Positions 24,755 through 45,036 of a stretch of DNA of 64,000 nucleotides are shown here, piece by piece. The position numbers were made by a program, and so were the translations under genes. How positions within the stretch are numbered: the stretch's first letter is position 1; every line of letters begins with the position of its first letter. Below the pieces are notes generated by a model. The model was not told where the DNA came from, did not search any database, and was given only the letters and a program-made list of their open reading frames with translations. The stretch spans positions 1-64,000 of the forward strand of contig CANRFZ010000010.1 of NCBI GenBank assembly GCA_947630025.1, in the 5' to 3' direction. This stretch comes from an uncultured Lachnospiraceae bacterium (lineage in GTDB: Bacteria; Bacillota; Clostridia; Lachnospirales; Lachnospiraceae).

Positions 24755-24847
24755 TAGCTTAACTAATTATGCGCGGCCATGGATGGCCTGCAGGCCTATA
24801 GCCTTAGGAGCATATTCCGGGGACATCAAGGAGGAAAGGAGGGGCCT

Positions 24848-26206: not shown

Positions 26207-27343
26207 TTAGCATTCCTTTGCCGCGGCCTGCAGCGCTGCGGCAATTACTTTGTCCATATCATAATACCGGTACTGCCCCAGCCGTCCGCCGAAGATCACA
26301 TGGGGCGTCTCCTCGGCCAGCTTCCGGTATTCCGCGCAGAGCGCGTCGTTGCGGTCGTCGTTGACCGGATAATAGGGTTCGTCGCCCTGCCGCCATTCGG
26401 CGGGATATTCCCTGGTAATGACAGTTCCCTTCTGGGTGCCGAAATTAAAATGCTTGTGCTCGATGATGCGGGTGTAGGGCACTTCCCTCTCCGTGTAGTT
26501 GACCACCGCGTTGCCCTGATAATTGTCGCAGTCCGGCATTTCTTCCGTCTCAAACCGCAGGGAGCGGTATTCCAGATGCCCCAGCCTGTAATCAAAATAC
26601 TCGTCCAGCATTCCGGTGTAGACCACTTTCCGGTAACGGTTGCCCTGCCGGTCGACGATCTCCGTGCCGTCCTCTGTCCTGCGCTCGTCGGCAAACTCGC
26701 GGTACGACACGCCGGTGCGGATTTCCACGCCCGCTAGCATCTTGGACACCATGGCGGTATACCCGTCCACGGGGATTCCCTGATATCTGTCGTTAAAATA
26801 ATTGTTGTCGTAGACAAACCGCAGCGGCAGCCGCTTGATGATAAACGCGGGGAGCTCTCTGCAGTCGCGGCCCCACTGCTTCTCGGTGTAGCCCTTGACC
26901 AGCTTTTGGTAAACGTCCGGGCCCACGAGGGACAATGCCTGCTCCTCCAGATTCCGCGGCTTAACGATACCCAGCCCGGCGATCTGCTCCGCGATCCGCG
27001 CCTTGGCCTGTTCGGGCGTCACGACGCCCCACATTTTATGAAATGTATTCATATTAAAAGGGAGATTAAATACCTCTCCCTTATAATATGCGACCGGTGA
27101 ATTGATATAGTGGTTAAACTCCGCGAACCTGTTGACATAGTTCCATATGTCCCTGTCGGACGTATGGAAAATATGCGCGCCGTATTCATGCACTTGGATA
27201 TCCATCACGGAACGGGTGTAAATATTGCCCGCGATGTGATCCCTCCTGTCGATGACCAGCACCTTACGGCCCTGATCGGTCATCTCTCTTGCAAATACCG
27301 CGCCGAACAGTCCGGCGCCCACTATCAGATAATCGTACTGCAT
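26207..27343 (-). CDS. glf: UDP-galactopyranose mutase
   Basis: A 378-residue flavoenzyme interconverting UDP-galactopyranose and UDP-galactofuranose, the donor for galactofuranose-containing surface glycans. The N-terminal FAD-binding motif is YLIVGAGLFGAVFAREM followed by VIDRRDHIAGN. Conserved GLF segments include EYGAHIFHTSD, KGYTEKQWG, VVNYTEREVPYTRIIEHKHF and the C-terminal GRLGQYRYYDMDKVI. The length is typical. The start overlaps the stop of the small HTH gene by one base, so the two are coupled. It lies next to a glycosyltransferase island and may supply Galf for it. Confidence 0.97.
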   Translation of the reverse strand: MQYDYLIVGAGLFGAVFAREMTDQGRKVLVIDRRDHIAGNIYTRSVMDIQVHEYGAHIFHTSDRDIWNYVNRFAEFNHYINSPVAYYKGEVFNLPFNMNTFHKMWGVVTPEQAKARIAEQIAGLGIVKPRNLEEQALSLVGPDVYQKLVKGYTEKQWGRDCRELPAFIIKRLPLRFVYDNNYFNDRYQGIPVDGYTAMVSKMLAGVEIRTGVSYREFADERRTEDGTEIVDRQGNRYRKVVYTGMLDEYFDYRLGHLEYRSLRFETEEMPDCDNYQGNAVVNYTEREVPYTRIIEHKHFNFGTQKGTVITREYPAEWRQGDEPYYPVNDDRNDALCAEYRKLAEETPHVIFGGRLGQYRYYDMDKVIAAALQAAAKEC

Positions 27344-27687
27344 CAGTTTTCCTCAACCGCCTTGTACTTGTCGAGCTGCGCGTAATCCTCCATCAGCTCC
27401 AACGCTTTTCTGCGCCCGGTTTTATTCAGTTTCACATAATACTGCATAACCCGGTTCTCCATGATTCTGCCGCCCAGAATGCTTTTCTGGTTCAGCGGCG
27501 TGAAATCAACCGGGTTTAAATACAGTCTGTCACACATTTTGATCACGGTGCCATATGCCATTCCCTCGATGCCTCTGTCTAAAGCGGTGACTAAGGTCGA
27601 ATATGGAATCTCCATCTCGATCGCAAACTGTCTGACACTTTTATACTGTTTCAGTATCTCTGCTTTAAGAATTTCTGCCTTTGTCAT
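27343..27687 (-). CDS. Small HTH-type DNA-binding protein
   Basis: A 114-residue protein with a probable helix-turn-helix of the XRE type: ILKQYKSVRQFAIEMEIPYSTLVTALDRG, then TVIKMCDRLYLNPVDFTPL. The C-terminal part (about 70-114) is helical (YYVKLNKTGRRKALELMEDYAQLDKYKA). AGGAGGG precedes ATG. It is co-transcribed with glf and may autoregulate: two direct ACGAAAAAG words about 24 bp apart lie 40-75 bp upstream. Its target is unknown. Confidence 0.7.
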   Translation of the reverse strand: MTKAEILKAEILKQYKSVRQFAIEMEIPYSTLVTALDRGIEGMAYGTVIKMCDRLYLNPVDFTPLNQKSILGGRIMENRVMQYYVKLNKTGRRKALELMEDYAQLDKYKAVEEN

Positions 27688-28061
27688 ATAAGCCCTCCTG
27701 TTGTGTCATACATCATTCTGTTTTCAAGTGTCACGAAAAAGTATATCACATTTTTTACGAAAAAGGAACCACTAAAAGTCTAATTTGAACGGAATGTCGT
27801 TAATATTGTTAATTTATTCCTATTTTCCGGACTTTTTTTGGTAAAAAAGTCTAGTACTTTAGTATGACTTCATAGAAAAAAGCGCCGAAAGACCTGCTGA
27901 GGCATAGACAACCTGTGCAGGGGCGGCACCGGCAGGACTGCGGTGTATCGGGGAAAAGGCTGCCGCGCCGCGAAAGATTGTATTGTCGTACCCTGCAGAA
28001 AATGTTAATATAGATAGTAGGCGGAAACGATGCCGCGACTGACGTAAAGTGAGGGACAAAA
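27688..28061 (+). promoter_or_regulatory. Divergent intergenic region with structured leader before the glycosyltransferase island
   Basis: The left part is AT-rich and probably contains the promoters of both directions. A TATACT on the minus strand near 27740 and a weak TTGGTA-N16-TAGTAT around 27838-27865 are the best candidates. A perfect 9-bp AT-rich hairpin lies at 27830-27851. From about 27878 to 28005 the sequence turns GC-rich and can fold: CCTGC pairs with GCAGG (27892-27920), and CGGCAG with CTGCCG (27929-27964). No known riboswitch class was recognised. Confidence 0.45.
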
Positions 28062-29117
28062 ATGCTTCCGATTTCGGTCTGCATGATTGCAAAAAACGAG
28101 GACAACCATATCGAAGAATGCCTAAAGCGGCTGAGGCCGTGCCGTTTTGAGGTGATCGTGGTGGACACGGGCTCCGTGGACAGGACGGTGGAGATCGCAC
28201 AGCGCTACGCCGACAAGGTATTCCACTTCGCTTGGTGCAACGACTTCTCCGCGGCCAGAAACTTTTCCATCCGGCAGGCTTCCAACGACTGGGTGCTGAT
28301 TATCGACTGTGACGAGTATCTGGAAAACGTCAATCTGGCGGATCTGGAGGACGCGCTGGAGCAGAACAGCCGCTCCGTAGGCATGATCGTCCGCAACAAC
28401 CCTTATAGCATTCAGGGCGTGCGCTCGATTATGTCGGAGCGCATCGGCAGGCTTTTTAACCGGCGCTACTGCCATTTCGAGGGTATCATCCACGAACAGG
28501 TGTGCACGCTGGACGGCAGGGAGCCGGCTTCGTTCCAGATTCCGCTCACCTTTTATCACGAAGGCTACGTGTCCGAATCCGGCAAGCGTATGCGCGCCAC
28601 CCGCAATCTGGAGCTGCTGCTGCAGGACTTGGAGCGCAAGGGCCCCAGCCCGTACACCTATTTCCGGCTCGGGCAGAACTACGTCTCCCTGAACGATCTG
28701 GACAAGGCCGCCCACTATTACCAGAAGGGGCTGGAACTGGACGTGGACACCGGCTCCGCCTTTGTGCAGAGCATGGTGGAGACATACGGTTACTGCCTGA
28801 TCGAGCTGGCCAGATACGACGCGGCGATGGAACTGTGCAGGCGGTACGGCGTCCTGTCCCAGCGCGCGGACTTCGTCTATCTGCAGGGCATGATTTATAT
28901 GAAAAAGGGGCTTTACGACCGCGCCATCGCCGAGTTTGAAAAGGCTACCGGCTTTGCGACCTGTTCCCGCAAGGGCATCAACAGTTACCAGTCCTACTAC
29001 AACATCGCGTCCATCTACGAGACCACGGGGGAACTGGACAAGGCGCGTTCCTATTATAAGAAGTGCGGCGATTACGCGCCGGCGGTGAGACGCCTGAAAG
29101 AGATCGCGCCGCGGTAA
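28062..29117 (+). CDS. GT2 glycosyltransferase with TPR tail
   Basis: A 351-residue cytoplasmic glycosyltransferase. The N-terminal GT-A domain (about 1-200) begins ISVCMIAKNEDNHIEECLKRL, has VDTGSVDRTVEIAQRYAD, FSAARNFSI and the metal-binding DCDEY motif near residue 87, and IIHEQV, which in this class is the catalytic-base region. The C-terminal part (about 205-345) contains TPR-like helices ending in a KKCGDYAPAVRRLKE signature shared by its paralogues here. Proteins of this architecture are common beside flagellin genes of Clostridia, and TPRs may bind the acceptor protein. The donor sugar and acceptor are not evident. It is the first gene of the island, with a GAGGGA site. Confidence 0.88.
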   Translation: MLPISVCMIAKNEDNHIEECLKRLRPCRFEVIVVDTGSVDRTVEIAQRYADKVFHFAWCNDFSAARNFSIRQASNDWVLIIDCDEYLENVNLADLEDALEQNSRSVGMIVRNNPYSIQGVRSIMSERIGRLFNRRYCHFEGIIHEQVCTLDGREPASFQIPLTFYHEGYVSESGKRMRATRNLELLLQDLERKGPSPYTYFRLGQNYVSLNDLDKAAHYYQKGLELDVDTGSAFVQSMVETYGYCLIELARYDAAMELCRRYGVLSQRADFVYLQGMIYMKKGLYDRAIAEFEKATGFATCSRKGINSYQSYYNIASIYETTGELDKARSYYKKCGDYAPAVRRLKEIAPR

Positions 29118-29226
29118 TACGGCGCGGCCAAGCCAAGGAAAACGCCACAGTGCGGCGGCGCGGCGGCGCGGACAGGGAAACCGCCCGCGACGGACAGGCC
29201 GCGCGCATATAGGAGGTAGCCGGAGC

Positions 29227-30411
29227 GTGGAACCGATATCCGTCTGTATCATAGCCAAAAACGAGGAAGAACATATCGAGGAATGCTGCAGGAGGCTCGC
29301 CCCCTACGGATTCGAGATCGTGGTGGCGGACACCGGCTCCACGGATCGCACCGTGGAGATCGCCGGGCGCTACACCGACCGCATCTGCCGCTTTGACTGG
29401 TGCGACGACTTCGCCGCCGCTAAGAATTTTGCGATGGAGAAAGCCTCCCACGACTGGATACTTTCCCTCGACTGTGACGAATATATAGAGTCTGTTGACA
29501 TGAATGCGCTGGCCGCCTGCATGAAGCGGCACCCGCGGGATGCGGGCAGAATCCTGATCCGCAATACGTTCACGGAGAACGGGCAGACTTCCTGCGAGCA
29601 GGTGCGCGTCAGCCGCTTCGTCAACAGGCGGTACTATCGGTTCGAGGGCGTTGTCCACGAGCAGCTCGTCCCGATCCGGGCGGGCGGCGCGGCGCAGGCG
29701 GACGGTACGAACGCGACAGACGGCACGGACGCGGCAGACGGCGCAGGCACGGACACGGCAGGCAACACACCACAGGCGGGCGGTGCAGACACGGACGCGG
29801 CAGGCGGCGCAGCGCCTCCGGCCAAGTATGTATATGACGCGCCTGTCACCGTTCTTCATGTGGGGTATGACCTGACGCCGGAGCAGATGCAGGCCAAGTC
29901 CCGGCGCAATATCGATCTGCTGAAGCGGGAGCTGGAACGGCAGGGCCCCGATCCGTATCTCTATTTTCAGCTCGGACAGAGCTGCCGCAGACTGCACGAC
30001 TACGAAAGCGCCCTCTCCTATTTCGATCTGGGGCTTGCCATGGACGTAGACCCGGCGCTGGACTACGTGCAGACGATGGTGGAATCCTACGGCTACACGC
30101 TGCTGGATCTGAAACGGTACGCGGAGGCGCTGAATCTGCTGGGCGTGTACGACGTTTTTTCCAAGCGGGCGGATTTTGTGTTCCTGATGGGGCTGATCTA
30201 CATGAACAACGGAATGCTCGACCAGTCCATCAAAGAGTTTGAGAAAGCTGCCACTATAGCAGAGTTTGCCGTAGACGGCGTGAACAGTTATAAAGCCTTT
30301 TACAATATCGGCGTGATCTATGAATGCAGCGGCCATATCGAGGAGGCGAAACGCGCCTACCGCAGATGCGGCGGCTACGAACCGGCAAGGAAGCGACTGG
30401 AAGTATTATAA
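29227..30411 (+). CDS. GT2 glycosyltransferase with TPR tail and low-complexity insertion
   Basis: A 394-residue paralogue of the upstream enzyme, with ISVCIIAKNEEEHIEECCRRL, VADTGSTDRTVEIAGRYTD, FAAAKNFAM, DCDEYIE and VVHEQL. An Ala/Gly/Thr/Asp-rich insertion of about 50 residues (around 150-199, encoded at 29676-29823) interrupts the GT domain just after VVHEQL. TPR-like helices follow and it ends RRCGGYEPARKRLEVL. The start is GTG with AGGAGG ten bases upstream. The 109-bp gap before it is GC-rich with no feature recognised. Probably in one operon with its neighbours. Confidence 0.87.
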   Translation: MEPISVCIIAKNEEEHIEECCRRLAPYGFEIVVADTGSTDRTVEIAGRYTDRICRFDWCDDFAAAKNFAMEKASHDWILSLDCDEYIESVDMNALAACMKRHPRDAGRILIRNTFTENGQTSCEQVRVSRFVNRRYYRFEGVVHEQLVPIRAGGAAQADGTNATDGTDAADGAGTDTAGNTPQAGGADTDAAGGAAPPAKYVYDAPVTVLHVGYDLTPEQMQAKSRRNIDLLKRELERQGPDPYLYFQLGQSCRRLHDYESALSYFDLGLAMDVDPALDYVQTMVESYGYTLLDLKRYAEALNLLGVYDVFSKRADFVFLMGLIYMNNGMLDQSIKEFEKAATIAEFAVDGVNSYKAFYNIGVIYECSGHIEEAKRAYRRCGGYEPARKRLEVL

Positions 30412-30424
30412 AAAGAATGAGGAT

Positions 30425-30442
30425 AGTGTGAAAAATCACACT
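30425..30442 (+). promoter_or_regulatory. Palindrome before the DtxR-family gene
   Basis: Perfect 7-base arms AGTGTGA and TCACACT flank four As, between the preceding glycosyltransferase stop and the regulator start. It could be an operator for the regulator or a small mRNA hairpin. Confidence 0.45.
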
Positions 30443-30482
30443 GATGTGCTGATTGTTTCGCAGAAAGAAGATGGGGATTCTT

Positions 30483-30863
30483 ATGGAAATACGTGAATCG
30501 GCAGAAGACTATCTGGAAACGATACTGATCTTAAAGGAGCGGATCGGGCAGGTGCGCTCGATCGACATCGCCACGGAGATGAACTACAGCAAGCCCAGCA
30601 TCAGCGTCGCCATGAAGAAGCTGCGGCAGAACGGCTATATCGAGATGGACGGCGACGGCTTTATCACGCTGACGGACAAGGGGTTCGGCGTGGCCTCCAA
30701 TATTTACGACCGCCACCGCGTCCTGACGGATTTCTTCGTGTCGCTGGGCGTAGACCAGACGGTGGCAGCCGAGGACGCCTGCAAGATCGAGCACGACCTG
30801 AGCGAAGAAACCTTTGAAAAAATCCGCGAACACGCGCGCGACGCGGCGCAGCAGAGAGTATGA
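30483..30863 (+). CDS. DtxR/MntR-family metal-dependent regulator
   Basis: A 126-residue regulator. The N-terminal winged HTH has MEIRESAEDYLETILIL, with Asp and Glu at MntR-like metal ligand positions, and SKPSISVAMKKLRQNGYIEMD as recognition helix and wing. The dimerisation/metal domain has YDRHRVLTDFF and EDACKIEHDLS, keeping the Glu, Cys and His ligands seen in related members. No SH3-like third domain, so it is the short MntR-like form. ATG 30483 was preferred; ATG 30471 is possible. Its stop overlaps the start of the next glycosyltransferase by four bases, so it is translated with the island. Its presence suggests iron or manganese control of surface glycosylation, which is inference. 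Confidence 0.85.
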   Translation: MEIRESAEDYLETILILKERIGQVRSIDIATEMNYSKPSISVAMKKLRQNGYIEMDGDGFITLTDKGFGVASNIYDRHRVLTDFFVSLGVDQTVAAEDACKIEHDLSEETFEKIREHARDAAQQRV

Positions 30864-31999
30864 AACTATTTTTTATCGAATGGAAAAGTTTCGGCAACGA
30901 CGATATCAAGGCGGCGTTCCGGGCGGAGGGCCACGAAGTCGTCTGCTATCCGTTTGACAACAAGGACGGGCGGCGTGACAACGTGCTGGAACAGGATCTG
31001 GCCGCGGCCCTGCGGCGCAGCGTTCCGGACGTTGTCTTTTCGTTTAACTATTTTCCCGTGATATCCAATGTCTGCAAAAGGGAAGACATCCGCTACATCT
31101 CATGGATCTACGACAGTCCTTACGTGATGCTCTACTCCTATACCGTCGTCAATCCGTGCAATACCATCTATATTTTTGACCGGGCTCTGTATCAGGAATT
31201 TCACGACGCCGGCATACAGACCGTGCGGTATCTGCCGATGGCGGCGAACACGGACAGACTGGACCGCCTGACCGCCGGAGCGGACTCCTGCGAATACAAT
31301 GTGTCGTTCGTAGGCTCGCTCTACACCGAGGAGCACAACTTCTTTGAGCGCATGACCGGCCTGTCGCCGTATAGCAGAGGCTATCTGGACGCGCTTATGT
31401 CCGCCCAGATGAAAATACAGGGGTACAACTTTGTGCAGGAGTCATTGTCTCCCATAATGGAAGATTTGTACCGGGCGCTGCCGATGGACCCCAATCCGGA
31501 CGGCGTGGAGTCCAGAGAATATCTCTACGCACAGTATGTAATCAACCGCAAGATCACCGGGCTGGAGCGGGCGGATCTGATCGGCGCCGTAGCTGGGCAG
31601 TTTCCTTTCGACCTGTTTACGCAGAACCGCGAATTTACCGTGGACAATCTGCGCAATCACGGCACGGTTGACTACTATACGCAGATGCCGCTTGTCTTCC
31701 GCCGCAGCAGGATCAATCTGAATATCTCGCTGCGCAGCATCAAGAGCGGCATACCGCTGCGCGCCTTCGACATCATGGGAAGCGGCGGTTTCCTGCTCAG
31801 CAACTATCAGGCGGATTATCTGGAGCATTTCGTTCCCGGAGAGGATTTCGTCTACTATGAGAGCCGGGAGGATCTGCTGGACAAGATCGGCTACTATCTG
31901 GAGCACGAGGACGAACGCCGGGCCATAGCCGCATCCGGTCACGACAAGGTGGCAGCCGCCCATACGTTCCGCCACCGCGTCCGCGAAATGCTGGCATAA
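30860..31999 (+). CDS. CgeB-like glycosyltransferase
   Basis: A 379-residue GT-B-type protein of the CgeB/DUF3880 kind, cytoplasmic. The N-terminal Rossmann-like half has MKLFFIEWKSFGNDDIKAAFRAEGHEV, FSFNYFPVISNVCKREDIRYISWIYDSP and LPMAANTDRLDRL. The C-terminal half has SFVGSLYTEEHNFFERM, RINLNISLRSIKSGIPLRAFDIMGSGGFLLSNYQADYLEHFVPGEDFVYYES, the CgeB-type nucleotide-sugar region. Coupled to the DtxR-type gene by an ATGA overlap. A close paralogue lies at 45.0-46.2 kb. Substrates are unknown; context points to flagellin or cell-surface glycan. Confidence 0.87.
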   Translation: MKLFFIEWKSFGNDDIKAAFRAEGHEVVCYPFDNKDGRRDNVLEQDLAAALRRSVPDVVFSFNYFPVISNVCKREDIRYISWIYDSPYVMLYSYTVVNPCNTIYIFDRALYQEFHDAGIQTVRYLPMAANTDRLDRLTAGADSCEYNVSFVGSLYTEEHNFFERMTGLSPYSRGYLDALMSAQMKIQGYNFVQESLSPIMEDLYRALPMDPNPDGVESREYLYAQYVINRKITGLERADLIGAVAGQFPFDLFTQNREFTVDNLRNHGTVDYYTQMPLVFRRSRINLNISLRSIKSGIPLRAFDIMGSGGFLLSNYQADYLEHFVPGEDFVYYESREDLLDKIGYYLEHEDERRAIAASGHDKVAAAHTFRHRVREMLA

Positions 32000-32027
32000 A
32001 AAAGGCGGCAAGCAAAAACCAAGTTAT

Positions 32028-32110
32028 GTTATAAGTAATACTAAAAAATGCTAACAGTTATCGCTACAAGTAATGCTATAAGTAATGTTACAAGTAACGC
32101 TATAAGGAAT
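32028..32110. repeat. 12-bp tandem repeats
   Basis: Four in-phase 12-bp units run from 32063 to 32110 (GCTACAAGTAAT, GCTATAAGTAAT, GTTACAAGTAAC, GCTATAAGGAAT), with an isolated unit at 32028-32039. They fill the gap before the fusion glycosyltransferase gene and end about 45 bp before its start. They are AT-rich in a GC-rich neighbourhood. Confidence 0.85.
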
Positions 32111-32155
32111 TACATAAATAATGCTATCAGTATTTTATGATAAAGGAAAGACTTT

Positions 32156-34507
32156 ATGCTGCCGATATCCGTATGTATAATCGCCAAAAACGAAGAACAG
32201 AGAATCGAAAAATGTCTGGCCTCCGTCAAGCCCTACGGCTTTGAGATCGTGGTGGTGGATACGGGTTCCACCGACCGGACGAAGGAGATCGCCGCCCGCT
32301 ACGCCGACAAAGTGCTGGATTTTGTCTGGTGCGACGACTTCTCCGCCGCGCGCAACTACTCGCTGCGGGAAGCCTCCAACAACTGGATCTTTATGCTGGA
32401 CTGCGACGAGTGGATCAAGCAGATCGATGTGGAGGAGCTGAATTATTTCCGCAAGAAATACCCCGATAGCGTAGGCGCCGTCTCCCGCGAAAATCTCGTG
32501 ACCGAGAACGGGCAGCTCGTTCTCAACAATACCGACAACACGGAGCGCTTTTTTAACAAAAAGCTCTACCGCTACAAGGGCACGATCCACGAGCAGCTCG
32601 TGCCTGTCCACGGCACGGACTTTCCCTGTCTGCTGCTGCACACGGTCATCGAGCACACCGGCTACGACATGACACCGGAGCAGCGCATGGCCAAGGGCAG
32701 GCGGAACCTGACGCTGCTGCACAAGCAGTTGGAGCAGGAGCCGGACAACCCTTACGTGTACTACCAGCTCGGCAAAGGCTATGAGATCGTGGAGGACTAC
32801 CCCGCCGCCTGCGGCTATTACGCCAAAGGACTGTCCTACGATCTGGACCCGACGCTGGCCTACGTGCAGGCCATGGTAGTCTCCTACGGCAATATGCTGC
32901 TGCTCACCGGGCGGCCCGGGGAGGCGCTGGGCTATGAGCAGATCTATGACAACTTTGACGACACGGCGGATTTCGTCTATCTGATGGGCCGCATCTACGC
33001 CGCCAACGGGATGTACCCGCAGGCGATCGAGCAGTTCCACAAGGCGACGGGGCTGACAATCTGCCGACGGAACGGCGCCAACAGTTTTCTGTGCTACTAC
33101 GAAATCGGCCTGATCTGCGAACAGTCGGGCGACACGGACAATGCGCTGGCCTTTTACCGCCAGTGCGGAGACTTCCCGCCCGCCCGGAAGCGCACGGAGG
33201 AACTGCTGCACCGCCTACAGACGCCCGCTGCGCCGGACACACCTGAGACACCGAAGGCATCCGATACGCCCGCTGCATCAGACACATCCGAGGCATCCGA
33301 TGCGCCCGCTGCGCCGGACACATCCGAAACGACTAAGGCCCCTGCTGCCGCGCGGGGCGCAAAACGCCTTGTCCTGTTTGGCAGCGACATCTTTATCCTG
33401 CAGTATATTATGGAGCAGTACCGGCGCGCCTTCGAGGAGATGGGCTATGAGACGCACGTATTTCCGCCCGCGTCTTCCGCGGAAGCATTTCAGGCCGCCG
33501 CCGAGCAGCTTTTCCTGTTCCATGAAAAAGGCATCGACGCCGTTATCACATTTAACAACCGGGGCTTCTGTATGCCTATGTCGGGACAAGGCTCTCTCTG
33601 GGATCTCTGGGACGTCCCCTGCTACAATGTGCTGGTGGATCATCCGATGTACTACTTCGACACGCTGGACCAGAGTCCGGCCCGTGGCGTCGTCGTCTGC
33701 GCCGACCGCTGCCATGTCAAATACACGCAGCGTTTCTACCCCGCCGTGCGCCGGGCGGTTTTTGTGCCTGCCGGCGGCGAGGAGCTGCATCCGGGCGCGC
33801 CCGCCAAGCCTGTCGCTAAGCGCGGCATCGACGTACTGATGATCGGCAGCTACAAATATCATCAGGACTATGTTTATGACGGTGCGGACGAGGAAATCAT
33901 GGACGATCTGATCCTCCACCCGGACAAGACGCTGGAACAGGCCGTGGAGGAATACACAGTCCGCAGCGGACAGCGGATGACGGACGCCGCGCTGAAAGAC
34001 CTGATCCAGCGGCACCGCTTCGTGGAGACGAATCTCTGCGCCATGTACCGTCTGGAGCTGCTCCGTGCGCTGGCGGACGCCGGAATCACCGTGACCGTGT
34101 ACGGCGACGGCTGGGAACAGACCGACTTGGCGCAGCATTCCTGCTGCAGCCTGCATCCACGGACTGCCTTCCGCGACGCGCTGGCGCTGATGGGAGATAG
34201 CCGGATCGTCCTCAACCAGATGGCATGGTTTAAGGACGGCGGCAGCGAGCGCGTCTTTAACGCTATGCTGCAGGGAGCGGTCTGCGTGACAGACACAAGC
34301 GGCTATCTGCAGGAGCATTTCCGGGACGGCGAGGACATCGTATTCTACTCGCTGGCGGCGCCGGACGGCCTCCCCGGTCTGGTGCGGGAGCTGCTGCAGG
34401 ACGAGGCGCGGATGCAGCGGATCGCCGACAACGGCTGCAGACGGGCAAAGGCGGCGCACACATGGGCGCACAGGGCCGCTGAACTGGAGGCGCTATGGAC
34501 AAACTGA
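32156..34507 (+). CDS. Fusion glycosyltransferase: GT2-TPR plus CgeB-like
   Basis: A 783-residue bifunctional protein. Residues 1-230 are a GT2 domain (ISVCIIAKNEEQRIEKCLASV, VDTGSTDRTKEIAARYAD, FSAARNYSL, DCDEWIK, TIHEQL), about 200-350 TPR-like helices ending RQCGDFPPARKRTEELL, about 356-400 a Pro/Ala/Thr/Ser/Asp-rich linker, and 400-783 a CgeB-like GT-B domain (LVLFGSDIFILQYIMEQYRRAFEEMGYE, ITFNNRG, NVLVDHPMYYFD, VYGDGWEQ, RIVLNQMAWFKDGGSERVFNAMLQGAVCVTDTSGYLQEHF). It combines the two enzyme types that occur as separate proteins elsewhere in the island and probably adds two successive sugars. Its end overlaps the next gene by 13 bp. Confidence 0.9.
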   Translation: MLPISVCIIAKNEEQRIEKCLASVKPYGFEIVVVDTGSTDRTKEIAARYADKVLDFVWCDDFSAARNYSLREASNNWIFMLDCDEWIKQIDVEELNYFRKKYPDSVGAVSRENLVTENGQLVLNNTDNTERFFNKKLYRYKGTIHEQLVPVHGTDFPCLLLHTVIEHTGYDMTPEQRMAKGRRNLTLLHKQLEQEPDNPYVYYQLGKGYEIVEDYPAACGYYAKGLSYDLDPTLAYVQAMVVSYGNMLLLTGRPGEALGYEQIYDNFDDTADFVYLMGRIYAANGMYPQAIEQFHKATGLTICRRNGANSFLCYYEIGLICEQSGDTDNALAFYRQCGDFPPARKRTEELLHRLQTPAAPDTPETPKASDTPAASDTSEASDAPAAPDTSETTKAPAAARGAKRLVLFGSDIFILQYIMEQYRRAFEEMGYETHVFPPASSAEAFQAAAEQLFLFHEKGIDAVITFNNRGFCMPMSGQGSLWDLWDVPCYNVLVDHPMYYFDTLDQSPARGVVVCADRCHVKYTQRFYPAVRRAVFVPAGGEELHPGAPAKPVAKRGIDVLMIGSYKYHQDYVYDGADEEIMDDLILHPDKTLEQAVEEYTVRSGQRMTDAALKDLIQRHRFVETNLCAMYRLELLRALADAGITVTVYGDGWEQTDLAQHSCCSLHPRTAFRDALALMGDSRIVLNQMAWFKDGGSERVFNAMLQGAVCVTDTSGYLQEHFRDGEDIVFYSLAAPDGLPGLVRELLQDEARMQRIADNGCRRAKAAHTWAHRAAELEALWTN

Positions 34508-36480
34508 TCAGCATTATCGTGCCATGCTATAATGTGGAAAAATACATAGACCGCTGCTTCGCATCCCTGCTGGCGCAGACCGTCGGCTTTGAGCGCCTAG
34601 AAGTCATCTTCGTGGACGACTGCTCCACCGACGGCACATGGACGCGGCTGACGGCTCTGGAAAGTGCCTATCCCGACTCCGTTCTGATCATCCACTGCGA
34701 CGAGAACGGGCGGGCAGGCGGCGCGCGCAACGTCGGCCTGCAGTACGCCACGGCGCCCTATGTCGGCTATGTGGACGCGGACGACCGGATCGAGCCGAAT
34801 ATGTATGAGAAACTATATGACAGGCTGCTCCGTTACGACTGCGACATCGCCATGTGCCGGATGTCGCGCGACTATGCCTGGGAGGAGCGCCGCCCCGCCG
34901 CGCCGGAGGCGGAAGGGGCGCAGAGCAGGCTGCTGGTGATCGATACGGAGGAAAAGCGCCGCACGTTTCTGACCTGCGGTTCCATCGGCTACTGTATCGT
35001 GGATAAACTGTATTCCCGCGATTTCCTGCTCAGGAACCGTCTGTTCTTCCCGGAGAAGCTGGCCTATGAGGATCACTTTTTTATGACGCTGCTCTATCTG
35101 TACGCGGAGCGCGTCTATCTGCTGGAAGAAACTCTGTACCACTACTTCGTCAACCCCGGCTCCACCGTGCTGACGCCGGATGCGTCCTATCACTTCGACA
35201 TACTGACCGTGAACAGGCTTTTGTGGGACGAATGCGCGAACCGCGGTTTCCTCGGACAGTACCGGGCGGAGATGGAATACCAGTTCCTCACCCTGTGCTA
35301 TCTGACCGCCATGAAGATGATCAGCCTGCGGATGTCGCACGCGCCCTATGACTTTTTTGTGACATTAAAAGAGGAAACGCTGCGGCGCGTACCGGACTAT
35401 CACGCCAATCCCTATGTGGAGGAATATGTGACCGAGCTGAACCGGATGCTGCTGCGGCTGCTGGAACTGCCGATCGGCGAGGCGGATCTGGATGCCGTCT
35501 GCGGCGCGGTGGCGGCCCACTACGGCAAAGGGATTCTCCAGATCTACGTCTGCACCCACGTGCCTTTCCGGGTGCCGGAGGACCCGATCTACCGGCCCCT
35601 GCAGGTGGGGCGCGCCCTGCGGCCCGACTTGGGATATCTGCGGGACGACACCGGAGACAACATTTCCCGGCTCAACTTCCTCTATTCCGAGCTGACCGGC
35701 CTGTACTGGATCTGGAAAAACGTGCGCGGCGCGGAGTATGTGGGCCTGTGCCATTACCGCAGATACTTTCTGACGGCAGAGGGACACATCATGTCCCGGG
35801 CGGATTTCCTGCCGCTGCTCTCCCGCTATGACGTCATCATCTCGCAGCCCGTCGCTTCCGACATGAGCTACCGGGAAGTCTACGCGCAGGCCCACAACGC
35901 CGGAGATCTGGAAGCCGTCCGGGAGGCGGCGGCCGCGCTCTATCCCGGCTGCGCGCCTATCTTAGAGGAAGTGCTGGCGGGACACCGGCTATACTGCGGC
36001 AATCTGTTCGTCACCTCCAAGCGGTTGTTTGACGAATACGCCGCGTGGCTCTTTGCCGTTTTCCACGAAGCCGAGCCGAAAATCCACACGGAGGGCTACG
36101 ACGACTACCACCGGCGCGTCTACGGTTTTCTCTCGGAGCAGCTCGTCTATGTGTGGATTCGCTACCGGGGGCTCAGCCACTATGAGGCGCCCATCGGTTT
36201 TACACAGGAAAAAGCGGAGACGGTGGAACTGAAAGAGCGGCTGGCCGCCCTGTTTCGCGAGCGCAGGATTCGGCAGGCCGGAGAGCTCTTTGACGAGACG
36301 ATGCGCTCCCGTCCGGATCTGACGCTGCCGGGATCGGACTTCGACCGGGAGCTGACGACGATCTCCCGCATCCTGCGGGATTGTCTGGAGGCGGAAAAAA
36401 CCGGCGGCCCGTCGCCGTTAAACCATAGCACCGACTTAAACGAGCTGATCCGCCGGTACAGAGAGCAGCCGGAAACGTGA
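34495..36480 (+). CDS. Fusion glycosyltransferase: GT2 plus DUF4422
   Basis: A 661-residue protein. Residues 1-330 are a GT2 domain (LISIIVPCYNVEKYIDRCFASLLAQT, VDDCSTDGT, GRAGGARNVGLQYATAPYVGYVDADDRIEPNMYE), followed by a helical region. From about 347 a DUF4422 domain begins (LQIYVCTHVPFRVPED, LRDDTGDNISRLNFLYSELTGLYWIWKN, EYVGLCHYRRYF, GNLFVTSKRLFDEYAAWLF), a domain typical of capsule and LPS glycosyltransferases. No TPR tail or membrane segment was seen. The last codons and stop lie in a 44-bp unit that is triplicated immediately downstream. Coupled to the preceding gene by overlap. Confidence 0.88.
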   Translation: MDKLISIIVPCYNVEKYIDRCFASLLAQTVGFERLEVIFVDDCSTDGTWTRLTALESAYPDSVLIIHCDENGRAGGARNVGLQYATAPYVGYVDADDRIEPNMYEKLYDRLLRYDCDIAMCRMSRDYAWEERRPAAPEAEGAQSRLLVIDTEEKRRTFLTCGSIGYCIVDKLYSRDFLLRNRLFFPEKLAYEDHFFMTLLYLYAERVYLLEETLYHYFVNPGSTVLTPDASYHFDILTVNRLLWDECANRGFLGQYRAEMEYQFLTLCYLTAMKMISLRMSHAPYDFFVTLKEETLRRVPDYHANPYVEEYVTELNRMLLRLLELPIGEADLDAVCGAVAAHYGKGILQIYVCTHVPFRVPEDPIYRPLQVGRALRPDLGYLRDDTGDNISRLNFLYSELTGLYWIWKNVRGAEYVGLCHYRRYFLTAEGHIMSRADFLPLLSRYDVIISQPVASDMSYREVYAQAHNAGDLEAVREAAAALYPGCAPILEEVLAGHRLYCGNLFVTSKRLFDEYAAWLFAVFHEAEPKIHTEGYDDYHRRVYGFLSEQLVYVWIRYRGLSHYEAPIGFTQEKAETVELKERLAALFRERRIRQAGELFDETMRSRPDLTLPGSDFDRELTTISRILRDCLEAEKTGGPSPLNHSTDLNELIRRYREQPET

Positions 36481-36567
36481 AAACGAGTTGATCCGCTATT
36501 ACAGAGAGCAGCCGGAAACGTGAAAACGAGCTGATCCGCTATTACAGAGAACAGGCCGAAACGTGAA
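36437..36567 (+). repeat. Three tandem copies of a 43-44 bp unit at a gene end
   Basis: Copy 1 (36437-36480) is the last coding part of the GT2-DUF4422 gene including TGA. Copies 2 and 3 follow directly, each again ending GAAACGTGA, with a few substitutions (such as CCGCCGGTAC becoming CCGCTATTAC). The extra copies are non-coding because the first stop is intact. Confidence 0.9.
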
Positions 36568-36591
36568 AATACATGGAGGGAATGAGATACC

Positions 36592-37782
36592 ATGCGATTT
36601 ATTCTTTTTTATGAGTCAACCGAATCTTTCAACTATTTTACCGACGAGATCGCCAAGGAGCTGCAGCGGCGGGGACATGACACCTTTATTCTGGATCTGC
36701 TGGACTTTGGCCGTCCGTCGCACTCGATGGCGGAGCTGATGACCTACTGCGAACAGAAGGCGGACGCCGTGATCTGCTTTAACCGCGCCGGCATCCACAA
36801 CGATACTTTTATCAGTCTGTGGAACACCATGGGCGCCTGCACGCTCCATATCCTCATGGATCACCCGCTGCGCCTGCACCCCACGATGGAACACCATCCC
36901 GACCGGTATATCCAGTTCTGCCCCGACGAGGAGCACGTGGCCTACGTCAAGCGGTATTTTCCGAACGTGGAGCACGTGGAATTTCTGGCCCACGCGGGAA
37001 CGCCGGACGACCAGCCGCCTATCCCCTTCCGGGACAAAAAATACGACATCCTCTTTTCCGCCACTTACTATGTGCCGGAAAGTATGCTGCACAATCTGGA
37101 AGAATTATTTCCAAAGGACTCTCCGATGTACGGCCTTTTTATGCAGATCGGCGACGACCTGATCCGCCACACGGACAAGCCGCTGATCCGCGCCGTGACG
37201 GACGTCCTGGAGGAAAACCATATGCCGTTAAGCGACGGCTCGGTCAAGACGATCATGCGGAACATGACGCCCATCGACTGGATGGTGCGGATGCACTACC
37301 GCGGCGAAGCCGTCCGCAGACTGGTGGAGGCGGGGCTGGACGTACACGTGCTGGGGCGCGGCTGGGAGGATCACCCCTGCGCCGGCGCGGACAATCTGCA
37401 CATCCTGAGCGACCGCATCGGCCTGTACGACACCTTTTCCTATATGCGCGACGCGCGGATCAATCTGAACGTCATGCCGTGGTTTAAGGCGGGAACCCAC
37501 GACCGGATCTTTAATACGATGCTGCGGCATTCCGTGTGCCTGACAGACTCCAGCACATGGATCGACGCGCACTACCGGGACGGCGAGGACATCGCGCTCT
37601 ATCATCTGGAGCATCTGGACAGGCTGCCGTCCATCGCGGAATACTGGCTGACGCACCCCGACGAGTCGGAGGCGCTTCTGGAGAAAGCCTGCGCCAAGAC
37701 CGCGGCGCACTACACATGGGCCAACTGCGTGGACTCCCTGCTGGATGCGCTGGAGCGCTGCTATGGAGGAAACGGCATATGA
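36592..37782 (+). CDS. CgeB-like glycosyltransferase
   Basis: A 396-residue GT-B-type protein of the same kind as the second half of the fusion enzyme. Motifs are MRFILFYESTESFNYFTDEIAKELQRRGHD, VICFNRAGIHNDTFISLWNTMGACTLHILMDHPLRLH, VLGRGWEDHPCAGADNL, ARINLNVMPWFKAGTHDRIFNTMLRHSVCLTDSSTWIDAHYRDGEDI and a C-terminal AAHYTWANCVDSLL. GGAGGGA precedes ATG. The stop overlaps the start of the next gene. Donor and acceptor unknown. Shared motifs with the fusion protein suggest duplication and fusion within the island. Confidence 0.87.
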   Translation: MRFILFYESTESFNYFTDEIAKELQRRGHDTFILDLLDFGRPSHSMAELMTYCEQKADAVICFNRAGIHNDTFISLWNTMGACTLHILMDHPLRLHPTMEHHPDRYIQFCPDEEHVAYVKRYFPNVEHVEFLAHAGTPDDQPPIPFRDKKYDILFSATYYVPESMLHNLEELFPKDSPMYGLFMQIGDDLIRHTDKPLIRAVTDVLEENHMPLSDGSVKTIMRNMTPIDWMVRMHYRGEAVRRLVEAGLDVHVLGRGWEDHPCAGADNLHILSDRIGLYDTFSYMRDARINLNVMPWFKAGTHDRIFNTMLRHSVCLTDSSTWIDAHYRDGEDIALYHLEHLDRLPSIAEYWLTHPDESEALLEKACAKTAAHYTWANCVDSLLDALERCYGGNGI

Positions 37783-38843
37783 TACCCATATCCGTCTGTC
37801 TGATTGCCAAAAACGAAGAAAAGAATATCGCGCGCTGCCTAGAGGCGCTGCGGGCATACGACTGGGAAATCCTCGTCGTGGACACGGGCTCCGACGACCG
37901 CACGAAGGAGATCGCGGGACAGTACGCCGACCGGGTGCTGGATTTCGTCTGGTGCGACGATTTCTCCGCCGCCCGCAATTTTTCCATCGGGCAGGCCGCT
38001 CATGACAGGATTCTGGTGGTGGACTGCGACGAGTATCTGACGGAAATCGACGTGGAGGCGCTGCTGCGTCTGGGCGAGGCGCACCCGACGGCGGTGGGAT
38101 GTGTCGAGCGGCGCAACCACTACCCGATGAACGGCGCCGACAGCGTCTATACCGACCGGGTGGAGCGCTTCTTCTCCCGCAGATATTACCGCTACGAGGG
38201 AATCATCCACGAACAGGTGCGCCCGCTGGAACCGGGGCGGCATCCCTACCGGACTTACCCTGCGCCGCTGACTCTGGAACATTCCGGTTATGACGGAAGC
38301 GCGGAGGCGCTGCAGCGGAAGGCGCAGCGCAATCTGGAGCTTCTGTTCCGCGATCTGAACAAAGAGCCGGACAACCCCTACACCTGTTTCCAGATCGCAC
38401 AGTGCTACAATATGATCCACGACGACGAAAATGCGCTGCGGTATTATAGCAGGGGGCTCTCCCACGACGTCGATCCCGCCGCCGAATACGTGCAGATGAT
38501 GGTCATCGGCTACGGCTACGCGCTGCTCCATCTGGGCCGGGCCGAGGAAGCGCTGGGACTGTGCGGCGTCTATGACGACTTCGCGGGGAGCGCGGATTTC
38601 CTGTCGCTGATGGGGCTGATCTATCTGCGCAACGGCCAGTACATGAAAGCGCTGATGGAGTTTGTCAAAGCGCTGTCCTGCGAGACCGCCCATGTGGAGG
38701 GCGCCAACAGTTTCATCCCCTCCTACAATATCGGCCTGATCAACGAGATGATGGGAAACCGGGAAGCCGCCCTCACCCACTACCGCAACTGCGGCGATTT
38801 CCCGATGGCGCTGGAAAAAATCCGAGAACTGACACAATCCTAG
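37779..38843 (+). CDS. GT2 glycosyltransferase with TPR tail
   Basis: A 354-residue paralogue of the other GT2-TPR enzymes: IPISVCLIAKNEEKNIARCLEALR, VDTGSDDRTKEIAGQYAD, FSAARNFSI, DCDEYLTE, IIHEQV, and a TPR tail ending YRNCGDFPMALEKIRELT. The start ATG at 37779 overlaps the previous stop (ATGA) and follows GGAGG; longer readings run through the previous gene in another frame. It is the last gene of the island and faces flagellin across a shared terminator. Confidence 0.88.
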   Translation: MIPISVCLIAKNEEKNIARCLEALRAYDWEILVVDTGSDDRTKEIAGQYADRVLDFVWCDDFSAARNFSIGQAAHDRILVVDCDEYLTEIDVEALLRLGEAHPTAVGCVERRNHYPMNGADSVYTDRVERFFSRRYYRYEGIIHEQVRPLEPGRHPYRTYPAPLTLEHSGYDGSAEALQRKAQRNLELLFRDLNKEPDNPYTCFQIAQCYNMIHDDENALRYYSRGLSHDVDPAAEYVQMMVIGYGYALLHLGRAEEALGLCGVYDDFAGSADFLSLMGLIYLRNGQYMKALMEFVKALSCETAHVEGANSFIPSYNIGLINEMMGNREAALTHYRNCGDFPMALEKIRELTQS

Positions 38844-38918: not shown

Positions 38919-39845
38919 TTAGCCAAGTAAGGACAGTGCCAACTGGTTGGTCTGGTTCGCCTGAGACAACATCGAGGTGCCTGCCTGCTGCAGAATGTTG
39001 TTGTTCGCATACTTAACCATCTCTGTTGCGATGTCCGTATCACGAATCTCTGCCTCTGCAGATGTGGTGTTCTCTACGATGTTATCAAGGTTCTTGATCG
39101 TGTGATCCAGTCTGTTCTGAACTGCACCGAGGTCATTACGCTGTTTGGATACTTCCAGCAGTGCGTACTTAACAACCGAGTTCAGGCTTGCGAAGTCGCT
39201 CTCTACTGCATAGGTGTCAAAGTCATCCTTGTCAAAGTTCGTGTAGAACTTATCATAAACCTTCTGCGTAGCACCGGAAATCTCAGTGGTTGCACCGCCG
39301 CCGCCGTAGGTCTTGTCGCCGTAGTTCGTCTTTACGCGGTCGAACAGAGCCTCAACGGACATACTTGCGATAGAGATCTCGATATGCTGACCGGATTCTG
39401 CGCCGACCTGCAGAGCCTTACCGGAGAACTCACCTGTCAACAGGTTCTGCTCGTTGAATGTGGTCGTGCTCTGTACGCGGTCGATCTCGCTCATCAGCTG
39501 CTGTACTTCCATCTGGATGTAGGAACGATCCGTGGAGGTCAGTGTAGCGGTCTCACCCTTAACTGCCAGCTCGTTGATACGCTGTAACATATCGTGTACT
39601 TCATTCAGCGCACCTTCTGCCGTCTGTACGCAGGAGATACCGTCCTGAGCGTTTGCGGATGCCTGTGTAAGTCCTCTGATCTGTCTTCTCATCTTCTCGG
39701 AGATCGCCAGCCCTGCTGCGTCATCCGCTGCACGGTTGATCTTGTAACCGGAAGATAACTTCTCGGTGGCCTTTGCCTGAGAGCTAGTCGTCAGACCAAG
39801 CATTCTGTTAGAGTTCATCGCTGTAATGTTGTGTTGTACTACCAT
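38919..39845 (-). CDS. hag: Flagellin
   Basis: A 308-residue flagellin, the filament subunit. The conserved N-terminal D0/D1 (MVVQHNITAMNSNRMLGLTTSSQAKATEKLSSGYKINRAADDAAGLAISEKMR) and C-terminal D1/D0 (LDHTIKNLDNIVENTTSAEAEIRDTDIATEMVKYANNNILQQAGTSMLSQANQTNQLALSLLG) surround a short variable part (about 150-215). The D1 segment MLQRINELAVK is of the TLR5-recognised type. It has a strong ribosome site (AAGGAGG), a sigma-28 promoter and a GGA-rich leader of about 130 bases. Surface Ser and Thr in the centre could be glycosylated by the adjacent island. Filament assembly needs FliS (41.6-42.0 kb) and FliD. Confidence 0.97.
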   Translation of the reverse strand: MVVQHNITAMNSNRMLGLTTSSQAKATEKLSSGYKINRAADDAAGLAISEKMRRQIRGLTQASANAQDGISCVQTAEGALNEVHDMLQRINELAVKGETATLTSTDRSYIQMEVQQLMSEIDRVQSTTTFNEQNLLTGEFSGKALQVGAESGQHIEISIASMSVEALFDRVKTNYGDKTYGGGGATTEISGATQKVYDKFYTNFDKDDFDTYAVESDFASLNSVVKYALLEVSKQRNDLGAVQNRLDHTIKNLDNIVENTTSAEAEIRDTDIATEMVKYANNNILQQAGTSMLSQANQTNQLALSLLG

Positions 39846-40034: not shown

Positions 40035-40850
40035 TTAATTCTGCCAGGCCATCTGCACGCTCTGGCTTTCCAATTCCTTCACCATAGCAAGCGGCAGTTC
40101 GGTATAATCGGCTATATCTTCCAAAGGCATTTTCCTTGCCTGAATCATGCGGATTGCCGTTCGCTTGGCCTTATTCAGCTCCGCCTCATTTCTCATATCT
40201 TCCAACATCTTGCACATCGACCTCACTCCTTCCTCGTCCTGCTTGAAATATCTCGCTCTTTCCGCAAGTGCGTCATAGTTCATATCATCGGGATCGGTAC
40301 AGGAAAAATCGTGCATCAGCCTGCCGATTTCATCATCACCGCGATATTTCCCATTCACATATAGGATATGCGAACCGTCGCCAAACAATACTTTTTTCCC
40401 TCTGACCGTTGCATACCGCTCTACAGGATAAATCGGCTCTCCGCCCTCCATCACATCATTTTCTGTAATAAAGATAACATAGCTGTCGGGAATGTCCTCC
40501 GTATCCTCGCCGGGCTTTAAAATATGAGCATCCAGCAGGCTGCTGTTGTGCCTTGCACGCTTGGCGCCTGCCCCGGCATCGGAACGTTGTATTTCTATGT
40601 CCATTTCCTTGTTGTTACTGCCTATCGCGTGGACATCCAGCACTGCCGATCTCCCCTGCAGATTTTTCAAAGATTCCTGCGTGCGGACAAATTTAATTTT
40701 TATGTCTTGTCCTAAGACAATCCTGAGAATCAGTTCCACCGCTTCCACATTATCCGCGAGGCAGACTGTAAAAAAATCATCATCCATGTATCGGAGTGCC
40801 CGGAGACGTTCCAAATCCTTCCGGTGCATCTGTTCCGCCGTATTCAACAA
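40035..40850 (-). CDS. Rpn-family (PD-(D/E)XK) nuclease-like protein
   Basis: A 271-residue protein of the recombination-promoting nuclease/putative transposase family. It begins with the RALRYMDDDFFTVCLADNVEAVELILRIVLGQ region. The nuclease core includes GRSAVLDVHAIGSNNKEMDIEIQRS (Asp and the E-x-Q motif of PD-(D/E)XK enzymes) and SYVIFITENDVMEGGEPIYPVER. A helical C-terminus follows. The first codon at 40850 is TTG with AGGTG upstream; ATG at 40829 is an alternative start. It sits between flagellin and the fliD operon without functional link. Such genes are numerous in Lachnospiraceae and spread by duplication. Confidence 0.82.
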   Translation of the reverse strand: MLNTAEQMHRKDLERLRALRYMDDDFFTVCLADNVEAVELILRIVLGQDIKIKFVRTQESLKNLQGRSAVLDVHAIGSNNKEMDIEIQRSDAGAGAKRARHNSSLLDAHILKPGEDTEDIPDSYVIFITENDVMEGGEPIYPVERYATVRGKKVLFGDGSHILYVNGKYRGDDEIGRLMHDFSCTDPDDMNYDALAERARYFKQDEEGVRSMCKMLEDMRNEAELNKAKRTAIRMIQARKMPLEDIADYTELPLAMVKELESQSVQMAWQN

Positions 40851-41130: not shown

Positions 41131-41607
41131 CTACTTCTTATTATCGTAGAACTGCGGCCCTACGTAGTTTAGGTTGTTCATACTGTTATAGTAATTGCGG
41201 GCGACTCTGTTCTTTGAGACGCCCTCGCCGATGGCCTGCCGCCTCTTTTGGAACTGCTTCTCCGCCAGCGTCTTGTTGCGCATATTGCCCGCGTTGATCG
41301 TAACGATCTTGTCCGTGATCTGCTGGATCTGCTCCTGCATCCGGGCGATCTCGTCACGGTAGCGCTCACGGTTGCCGATCAGCTCCTCCCGCACCCTGTC
41401 GTATACCGCCTCAAATCCCCGGTCGATCCGGTCGAGCTGCTCCACATAAGCGCCCTGTGCATCCAGCGCCTTGTCAAAAGCCTCCATGTCAAAATCGTCG
41501 CTTTTCAGAATCTTCTCCTGCGCGTCGATCTGTCCGATCAGTCTGTCCAGAATCCGGTTTTTCTTTTCAAGGCTCTCCAATAGTATCTGCGCACCGCTCT
41601 GCTCCAT
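41131..41607 (-). CDS. Putative flagellar export chaperone (FliT/FlgN-like)
   Basis: A 158-residue, largely helical protein. Two long coiled-coil stretches are seen (about 8-60, LESLEKKNRILDRLIGQIDAQEKILK; 60-115, RGFEAVYDRVREELIGNRERYRDEIARMQEQIQQI) and a C-terminal NYYNSMNNLNYVGPQFYDNKK tail reminiscent of the short motif ending FlgN-like proteins. Immediately downstream of fliS, the position held by fliT in many genomes. The start at 41607 has GAAAGGAT upstream; the longer reading overlaps fliS. A chaperone for FliD or another late substrate is the best guess from position and fold, not from direct motif match. Confidence 0.65.
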   Translation of the reverse strand: MEQSGAQILLESLEKKNRILDRLIGQIDAQEKILKSDDFDMEAFDKALDAQGAYVEQLDRIDRGFEAVYDRVREELIGNRERYRDEIARMQEQIQQITDKIVTINAGNMRNKTLAEKQFQKRRQAIGEGVSKNRVARNYYNSMNNLNYVGPQFYDNKK

Positions 41608-41627
41608 ACGATATCCTTTCCAAACAA

Positions 41628-42005
41628 CTATGCTTTGTTGCAGCGTTTCATGACTTCCTTCCACGTATCCCGCAGGCTTCTGAGGTGGGTGTTCACTTCC
41701 TCCAGAATGTCCTTGTCCTTATTGACATTGGCCTCAAAAAGCCGCCGCAGCACGTAGACGTAGATCTTGTCAAATTCTTCCGCCACCGGATATTTCCGAT
41801 CCAGCGTATTACGAAATTCTTCTATAATACGCTGCGTCTTCATAATATTGATGTGCGCTTTCTCTATCTCCTTCTGCTCGATCGCCATAATCGCGATATT
41901 GCAGAATTTGATGGCTCCCTCGTACAACATCAGCGTCAGCTCTGCGGGCGAAGCCGTGAGTATTTTGTTTCTCTGATATTGTTCATAAGGATTCTGTACC
42001 GGCAT
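41628..42005 (-). CDS. fliS: Flagellar export chaperone FliS
   Basis: A 125-residue FliS, the cytoplasmic chaperone that binds the flagellin C-terminus and delivers it to the export gate. It starts MPVQNPYEQYQRNKILTASPAELTLMLYEGAIKFCNIA, the diagnostic FliS segment with the YxQ..V/I..A..P.ELT.MLY.G pattern, followed by helices of the four-helix bundle. Ribosome site GGGAGGAG. It lies after fliD in the flaG-fliD-fliS operon. Confidence 0.96.
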   Translation of the reverse strand: MPVQNPYEQYQRNKILTASPAELTLMLYEGAIKFCNIAIMAIEQKEIEKAHINIMKTQRIIEEFRNTLDRKYPVAEEFDKIYVYVLRRLFEANVNKDKDILEEVNTHLRSLRDTWKEVMKRCNKA

Positions 42006-45010: not shown

Positions 45011-45036
45011 GATAACTTATGAACTGCGGAGATTTT

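Follow-up and report, generated by a model that had tools for sequence, protein, structure and literature searches.

A probable Maf-free flagellin glycosylation island with CgeB-type and fused glycosyltransferases in an uncultured Lachnospiraceae bacterium

Analysis of 64,000 nucleotides (the window) from contig CANRFZ010000010.1 of an uncultured Lachnospiraceae bacterium (assembly GCA_947630025.1) showed a cluster of eight rightward genes at positions 28062-38843, flanked by a UDP-galactopyranose mutase gene and a flagellin gene and made up of seven glycosyltransferases and one DtxR/MntR-like regulator. The cluster is very probably a Maf-free flagellin glycosylation island, in which sugars would be added to flagellin in the cytoplasm. 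Cytoplasmic O-glycosylation had been favoured in an earlier model-made reading of the DNA letters (the sequence-only reading), and it is well supported by inference from homology to GmaR, co-occurrence with flagellin over 199 genera and adjacency to flagellin in many genera. The setting is the one expected of such an island, with glycosyltransferase genes clustered next to those of flagellin and the filament. Islands that glycosylate flagellin, like GT2-TPR flagellin transferases, are already known or proposed (PMC13317340, PMC5109656, and GmaR; these and all papers below are cited from partial text), and the new part is the presence of CgeB-type and fused enzymes in a flagellin island. In the literature searched, no flagellar role was found described for CgeB-type enzymes, the GT2-TPR-CgeB fusion, DUF4422 or DUF3880.

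The Pfam scan covered 40 open reading frames (ORFs) of the window and left out rpoB, rpoC and the ORFs at 14.8-15.6 and 19-21.2 kb. It returned three GT2-TPR enzymes, two CgeB-like PF13524 enzymes, one GT2-TPR-PF13524 fusion and one GT2-DUF4422 enzyme, all of which the sequence-only reading had placed correctly. Two GT2-TPR genes, g1 (28062-29117) and g2 (29227-30411), opened the island, both with PF00535 and TPR matches. They were followed by the DtxR/MntR-family metal-dependent regulator (30453-30863; PF01325, PF02742) and by g4 (30860-31999), a CgeB-like DUF3880-PF13524 GT-B enzyme (PF13524 at E 2.6e-30, PF12996 at E 1.2e-21). The g5 gene (32156-34507) encoded the fusion, with a GT2-TPR part at about residues 1-358 and a CgeB-like GT-B part at about residues 402-783, and g6 (34495-36480) encoded a GT2 domain fused to a GT111-like DUF4422 domain (PF14393 at E 2.7e-70, PF00535 at E 2.7e-33). 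The last two were g7 (36592-37782), a CgeB-like PF13524 enzyme (E 1.6e-15) with no DUF3880 match, and g8 (37779-38843), a GT2-TPR enzyme adjoining flagellin (PF00535 at E 6.8e-21, and TPR). The ORF list gave 37536 as the start of g8, and the ATG at 37779 overlaps the preceding stop. The count of seven consecutive genes in the sequence-only reading was right for the enzymes, and the regulator brings the total to eight; its description of them as mostly overlapping was too strong, as the junctions measured 109, 41, -4, 156, -13, 111 and -4 bases, with 3 of 7 overlapping. The island does end at flagellin, as had been read: it converges on the minus-strand flagellin gene (38919-39845; 308 amino acids; PF00669 and PF00700, that is, Flagellin_N and _C), the presumed acceptor, with 75 bases in between. 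A further CgeB-like DUF3880-PF13524 enzyme (45019-46248, plus strand; PF13524 at E 6.6e-28) was likewise found where it had been proposed among the late flagellar genes, between flaG and fliW.

The best solved relative of g1 was GmaR, the flagellin O-GlcNAc transferase of Listeria (E 9.1e-32, g1 residues 4-192), and D-x-D-E and IHEQ were common to both. The order typical of GmaR, a GT2 domain with an acidic motif and then TPR, was present, and the C-terminal antirepressor domain was missing: GmaR, at 637 residues, also has linker and antirepressor domains, whereas g1, g2 and g8 (351 to 394 amino acids) end with the TPR (PMC9638930). The g8 protein was 45% identical to g1, and a second GT2-TPR gene followed g1 in many loci. 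The structure model of g5 predicted a SunS-like GT-A-TPR fold joined to a GT4-like GT-B fold. SunS and ThuS (PDB 7msp, 7msn, 7msk) were the top fold matches to its N part, and GmaR was absent among the g5 fold matches listed. SunS and ThuS are peptide S-glycosyltransferases that act on bacteriocin peptides. These fold matches, with matches of 53 to 85 bits to the NCBIfam SunS family model TIGR04195 for g1, g2, g5 and g8, could point to SunS-type enzymes making a glycocin-like peptide; however, the scores fall far under the curated cut-off of 350 bits and the co-occurrence described below is with flagellin, which makes this explanation highly improbable.

A sequence search gave no solved relative for CgeB-like g4. 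The g6 protein scored 237 bits for PF14393 against a cut-off of 25, which places it in GT111 / DUF4422. DUF4422 corresponds to the GT111 family, whose member WbbM is called a UDP-galactofuranose (UDP-Galf) transferase (PMC12269835), and the DUF4422 part of g6 matched WbbM at E 5.3e-24 in two stretches. Among relatives of g5, GT2-TPR was fused to DUF4422, GT8, a choline-kinase-like domain or another GT2-TPR; a GT2-methyltransferase-GT2-TPR protein and a CgeB-DUF4422 protein were also found. These varied partners suggest that the TPR module serves as a platform with exchangeable second steps.

The co-occurrence with flagellin that the sequence-only reading had proposed as a check was assessed in an even draw of 200 Lachnospiraceae genomes (199 genera, each genome at least 80% complete). 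A genome was counted as flagellin-positive on a PF00700 (Flagellin_C) match at E 0.001, a match that hook-associated proteins of the FlgL type might give as well, and the genome rows behind the co-occurrence and adjacency counts were transferred by hand from match listings. By this definition 106 of 200 genomes were flagellin-positive. GT2-TPR homologues (g1 query, E 1e-30) were present in 34 genomes, all 34 flagellin-positive (Fisher p 3e-11; 32/32 without the own genus). Such islands being common in non-flagellated relatives would speak against the sequence-only reading, and this check turned out in favour of the reading, with a GT2-TPR homologue at E 1e-30 in 0 of the 94 genomes without a Flagellin_C match. 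The other enzymes followed the same direction, with 51/55 genomes flagellin-positive for PF13524 at a best E of at most 1e-20 (59/63 at 1e-15) and 30/32 for long DUF4422 frames (340 amino acids or more). As negative controls, genomes with only short DUF4422 frames (at most 315 amino acids; genome G137 fell in neither class) were flagellin-positive in 9 of 22 cases (p 0.26), and those with only weak PF13524 matches, strong ones excluded, in 30 of 92.

Maf (PF01973) served as the positive control; at E 1e-30 or better, a cut chosen after the match list had been viewed, it was matched in 41 genomes, all 41 flagellin-positive. The distribution of GT2-TPR resembles that of strong Maf matches. Both were present together in 9 flagellin-positive genomes, with a mild, non-significant avoidance (p 0.09). 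GT2-TPR, strong CgeB-type or strong Maf, singly or together, occurred in 80 of 106 flagellin-positive vs 4 of 94 flagellin-negative genomes. Maf was unmatched at E 0.001 in the own genome (81.6% complete) and in a 100% complete genus-mate (G115).

A locus for a cell-surface polysaccharide or wall glycan, standing by chance beside flagellar genes, was also weighed. Two PGA_cap capsule-type genes, within 7 kb of each other, lie upstream (17661-18908 and 22985-24544), GT2 and DUF4422 domains are also found in enzymes that act on polysaccharides, WbbM among them, and strong PF13524 matches were present in four flagellin-negative genomes (G082, G174, G175 and G193; loci L144-L147). The UDP-galactopyranose mutase gene, glf, was also matched in 3 of those 4 stretches, and on these findings some CgeB-type enzymes probably serve other glycans. 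For the island itself, however, a polysaccharide role appears improbable: of the 40 scanned ORFs, none matched a flippase, ABC exporter, polymerase or lipid-carrier family, in agreement with the sequence-only reading, and GT2-TPR at E 1e-30 never occurred without flagellin in the 200 genomes. The sole transporter match among these ORFs was an MFS sugar carrier beside a melibiase gene at 56.4-57.8 kb.

Adjacency to flagellin was scored against the flagellin, CgeB and glf matches listed, and the counts given as "at least" are lower bounds. Flagellin lay within up to about 10 kb of the best g1 match in 13 of 32 other genera; flagellin, another flagellar gene or a FliD paralogue was near it in 20 of the 32 and none in 12, some of these on short contigs. 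Within the own genus, GT2-TPR was found at most 10 kb from a listed flagellin in at least 13 of 24 genomes and at least 52 of 107 matches (own-genome, other-order, split and weak matches, worse than about 2e-59, left out). In other genera, at most 15 kb separated a listed flagellin from at least 39 of 96 strong PF13524 and at least 17 of 39 GT2-TPR matches, where about 2% would be expected by chance, and 0 of 15 short DUF4422 matches were this close among the matches listed. These 15 kb counts left out the own genome, genomes without a listed flagellin (including G115) and PF13524 matches weaker than about 6e-21.

The neighbourhoods of g1 were compared in the best 80 of 101 relatives, of which 44 loci were 20 kb or longer. 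Three neighbours of the island were recurrent here: a FliD paralogue (24848-26161, plus strand; 437 amino acids from this ATG, in an ORF that opens at 24779), glf (26207-27343, minus strand; PF03275 at E 8.4e-82) and a small gene divergent from the island (27343-27687, minus strand), whose product is helix-turn-helix-like by eye and matched no Pfam family at 0.01. The small divergent gene had a relative beside g1 in 71 of 80 loci; glf, this gene and GT2-TPR occurred together in 70, and together with the FliD paralogue, the partner of this core module, in 62. Past g2 the content varied, with a regulator in 24 loci, CgeB-type genes in 36, a GT2-TPR-CgeB fusion 6 times and a GT2-DUF4422 enzyme 4 times. 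The island is therefore composite: a conserved core (FliD paralogue, glf and GT2-TPR) meets a variable cassette on the flagellin side. The earlier description of the island as flagellin-linked needs amending for g1 and g2, which lie in the separately conserved core. Because the genus keeps GT2-TPR, glf and the FliD paralogue and varies the cassette, the glycan probably differs between species.

This core brings in another possible target, in which the enzymes would glycosylate the FliD paralogue, FliD or hook-associated proteins. In 62 of 80 loci the FliD paralogue accompanies GT2-TPR, glf and the small divergent gene, vs 10 of 80 for flagellin, and 76 of the 77 genomes (of 200) that carry it have flagellin. 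On the other hand, among flagellin-positive genomes it was not tied to GT2-TPR (26/34 vs 50/72, p 0.5), many GT2-TPR genes adjoin flagellin, and the best solved relative acts on flagellin; another flagellar target is thus unlikely. In the Pfam scan the FliD paralogue matched FliD_C just over and FliD_N under the cut-off, and NCBIfam gave weak FliD models; some relatives are named "flagellar capping protein". By eye, its ends differ from those of the window's FliD and lack the usual FliD ends, and its structure model was poor (mean pLDDT, a per-residue confidence score, 51.6).

The sequence-only reading had pointed to the nearby mutase as a possible supply of a Galf donor. The presence of glf as such was rejected as evidence, being nearly universal in the family (185 of 200 genomes); the Galf idea itself gains from the DUF4422/GT111 domain and from the proximity of glf to the FliD paralogue. 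The glf gene of the window was the only copy found in the assembly (one among the matches listed), and at least 16 of the 77 genomes with the FliD paralogue, including 9 without GT2-TPR, had it at most 10 kb from glf; some of this proximity could stem from gene order that members of one family share. Because the single glf gene stands by the core, g6 has a GT111-type domain and glf lies near the FliD paralogue elsewhere, a Galf-bearing flagellin glycan is a specific but rather doubtful prediction, weakened by the near-universal glf. It would be made by two-step platform enzymes, with a GT2-TPR part that grips flagellin and adds the first sugar, exchangeable second enzymes, and UDP-Galf from the FliD-paralogue-adjacent mutase; this full scheme is a similarly doubtful proposal. 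The second enzymes seen in relatives were CgeB GT-B, DUF4422/GT111, GT8, kinase-like and methyltransferase types.

Several observations weigh against a flagellin glycosylation island. Flagellin was in reach of g1/g2 relatives in only 10 of the 80 loci, 11 of 24 same-genus genomes had no GT2-TPR match within 10 kb among the flagellin matches listed, and long DUF4422 frames of other genera were at most 15 kb from a listed flagellin in only at least 4 of 36 matches. DUF4422 overall was less tied to flagellin (40/55 genomes; 11/13 for long frames in genomes without GT2-TPR). PF01973 at E 0.001 was matched in 65 genomes, 12 of them flagellin-negative, so the Maf comparison rests on strong matches. 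Genera share ancestry and are not independent samples, and the p-values are for this reason too small, with the direction clear. Besides glf, no donor-sugar pathway was matched nearby among the 40 scanned ORFs. Absences in the own genome are weak because the assembly (2.64 Mb, 30 contigs) is 81.6% complete. No glycosyltransferase was matched in the stretch read around a second flagellin of this genome (contig C16, L151:15293-16306), which is very similar to that of the window and differs in a short central part; the same applied to the stretch around a third, long flagellin with a large central domain (contig C10, L149:11455-13281). Control of g1 by sigma28 was rejected, as its upstream region in the window held nothing that scored at least 10 of 12.

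For the favoured explanation, glycosylation of flagellin in the cytoplasm, the following order of steps is proposed. The GT2-TPR enzymes would bind free flagellin by the TPR tail, and the GT-A domain would attach the first sugar to Ser or Thr in the manner of GmaR. The glycan may then be lengthened by the CgeB-type GT-B enzymes and by the GT2-DUF4422 enzyme, with the fused g5 possibly carrying out two consecutive steps on one chain, and UDP-Galf from the neighbouring mutase might conceivably feed the DUF4422/GT111 step. The decorated flagellin would then be taken by FliS and exported, by analogy with Aeromonas. In Aeromonas caviae, Maf-dependent glycosylation precedes chaperone binding (PMC4065374); of the two TPR acceptors offered in the sequence-only reading, free flagellin is for this reason the better guess and FliS-flagellin the less likely one. 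Precedents for these steps are FlmG of Caulobacter and the stepwise type B pathway of C. difficile, both compared below, and Maf-1, which is reported to use its TPR in the flagellin-binding manner of FlmG (as cited in PMC13317340).

Comparison with known systems showed both shared and differing features. The islands of Clostridium are likewise variable and lie among flagellin genes, and their GT2 enzymes with TPR repeats have already been proposed as flagellin glycosyltransferases; they differ in carrying Maf, nonulosonic acid or dTDP-sugar genes, none of which were matched here, and CgeB and DUF4422 enzymes were not found described in the available parts of that report (PMC13317340). The Geobacillus island lies between a flagellin gene and flaG and has GT2 and GT4 enzymes, and some of these islands carry glf, but sugar pathway and maf genes are also there, and CgeB, TPR and DUF4422 are unmentioned in the main text (PMC5109656). 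In the type B locus of C. difficile, PF00535 GT2 enzymes by flagellin act stepwise and one of them carries a further, fused catalytic domain, with other partner domains and sugars (GlcNAc, rhamnose and a sulfonated moiety) than here (PMC5207246). FlmG of Caulobacter binds flagellin by its TPR part and not by the GT part alone, yet has an N-terminal TPR, a GT-B domain and pseudaminic acid as its sugar (PMC7591256). The N-terminal GT111 domain of WbbM (PDB 6u4b) is the DUF4422 domain found in g6; WbbM is an O-antigen polymerase in which it is paired with GT8, whereas g6 pairs it with GT2 in a flagellar setting (PMC12269835).

The upstream region of g1 contained a near-palindrome, TCTAGTACTTTAGTA (27850-27864, plus strand), variants of which can be recognised in 11 of 13 aligned upstream regions. 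A shorter form of the pattern had its only exact match in the genome at this site, which is possibly a local operator, perhaps of the divergent gene. A sigma-A-like promoter, TTGTCG-N17-TAATAT in the window, preceded g1 and was kept in relatives (by eye from the alignment), while a sigma70 scan at 9 of 12 gave no match for the window upstream of g1. A sigma28-like TAAA-N15-TCCGATAT started at 40007 on the minus strand before flagellin, and the same type was found before flaG-fliD. Among 40 related g1 upstream regions, 9 had a sigma28-like match of exactly 10 of 12, at differing places. A 12-of-12 sigma28-like match with a 16-base spacer was present at 32141-32168 (plus strand), its -10 part inside g5, past the ATG at 32156. 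The sigma28-like scan gave 58 rows, where five plain shuffles of the bases gave 21 to 35, so single sigma28-like rows mean little. For the long leader of g1 a known riboswitch was rejected, since the Rfam matches were limited to an L10 leader at another place and one match at E 0.83. The DtxR/MntR-size regulator overlaps the CgeB-type g4 by 4 bases and matched the NCBIfam MntR models below cut-off. At the presumed ligand positions it appears to have Cys where MntR has Glu, which would suit iron.

Several further features were recorded around the island. The second of the PGA_cap genes is just upstream of the FliD paralogue, and an NlpC/P60 gene is also found upstream. On the other side, a gene at 40035-40850, whose weak match to the PDDEXK_2 nuclease family falls slightly short of the cut-off, stands between flagellin and an FlgN-like gene. 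The latter (41131-41664) encodes an FlgN-matching protein and its ORF overlaps fliS; FlgN-like relatives were present in 8 of 80 g1 loci and adjoin flagellin in several other genera. Most of the nearest named records bore Lachnospiraceae titles, and many were, judged by title, gut metagenome assemblies. Two of the relatives have strain names, 0.1xD8-71 (L067) and 1xD42-87 (L084), and are presumably isolates. Glycosylated flagellin has reportedly been described in a Butyrivibrio, also a member of the Lachnospiraceae.

If the island works on flagellin, CgeB-type and DUF4422 enzymes gain a flagellar role. The flagellins that gut Lachnospiraceae make are under study as targets of innate immunity and of antibodies (PMC3720852, PMC11285207, PMC13353774). 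If many such flagellins are glycosylated, unmodified recombinant flagellin may misrepresent the native antigen.

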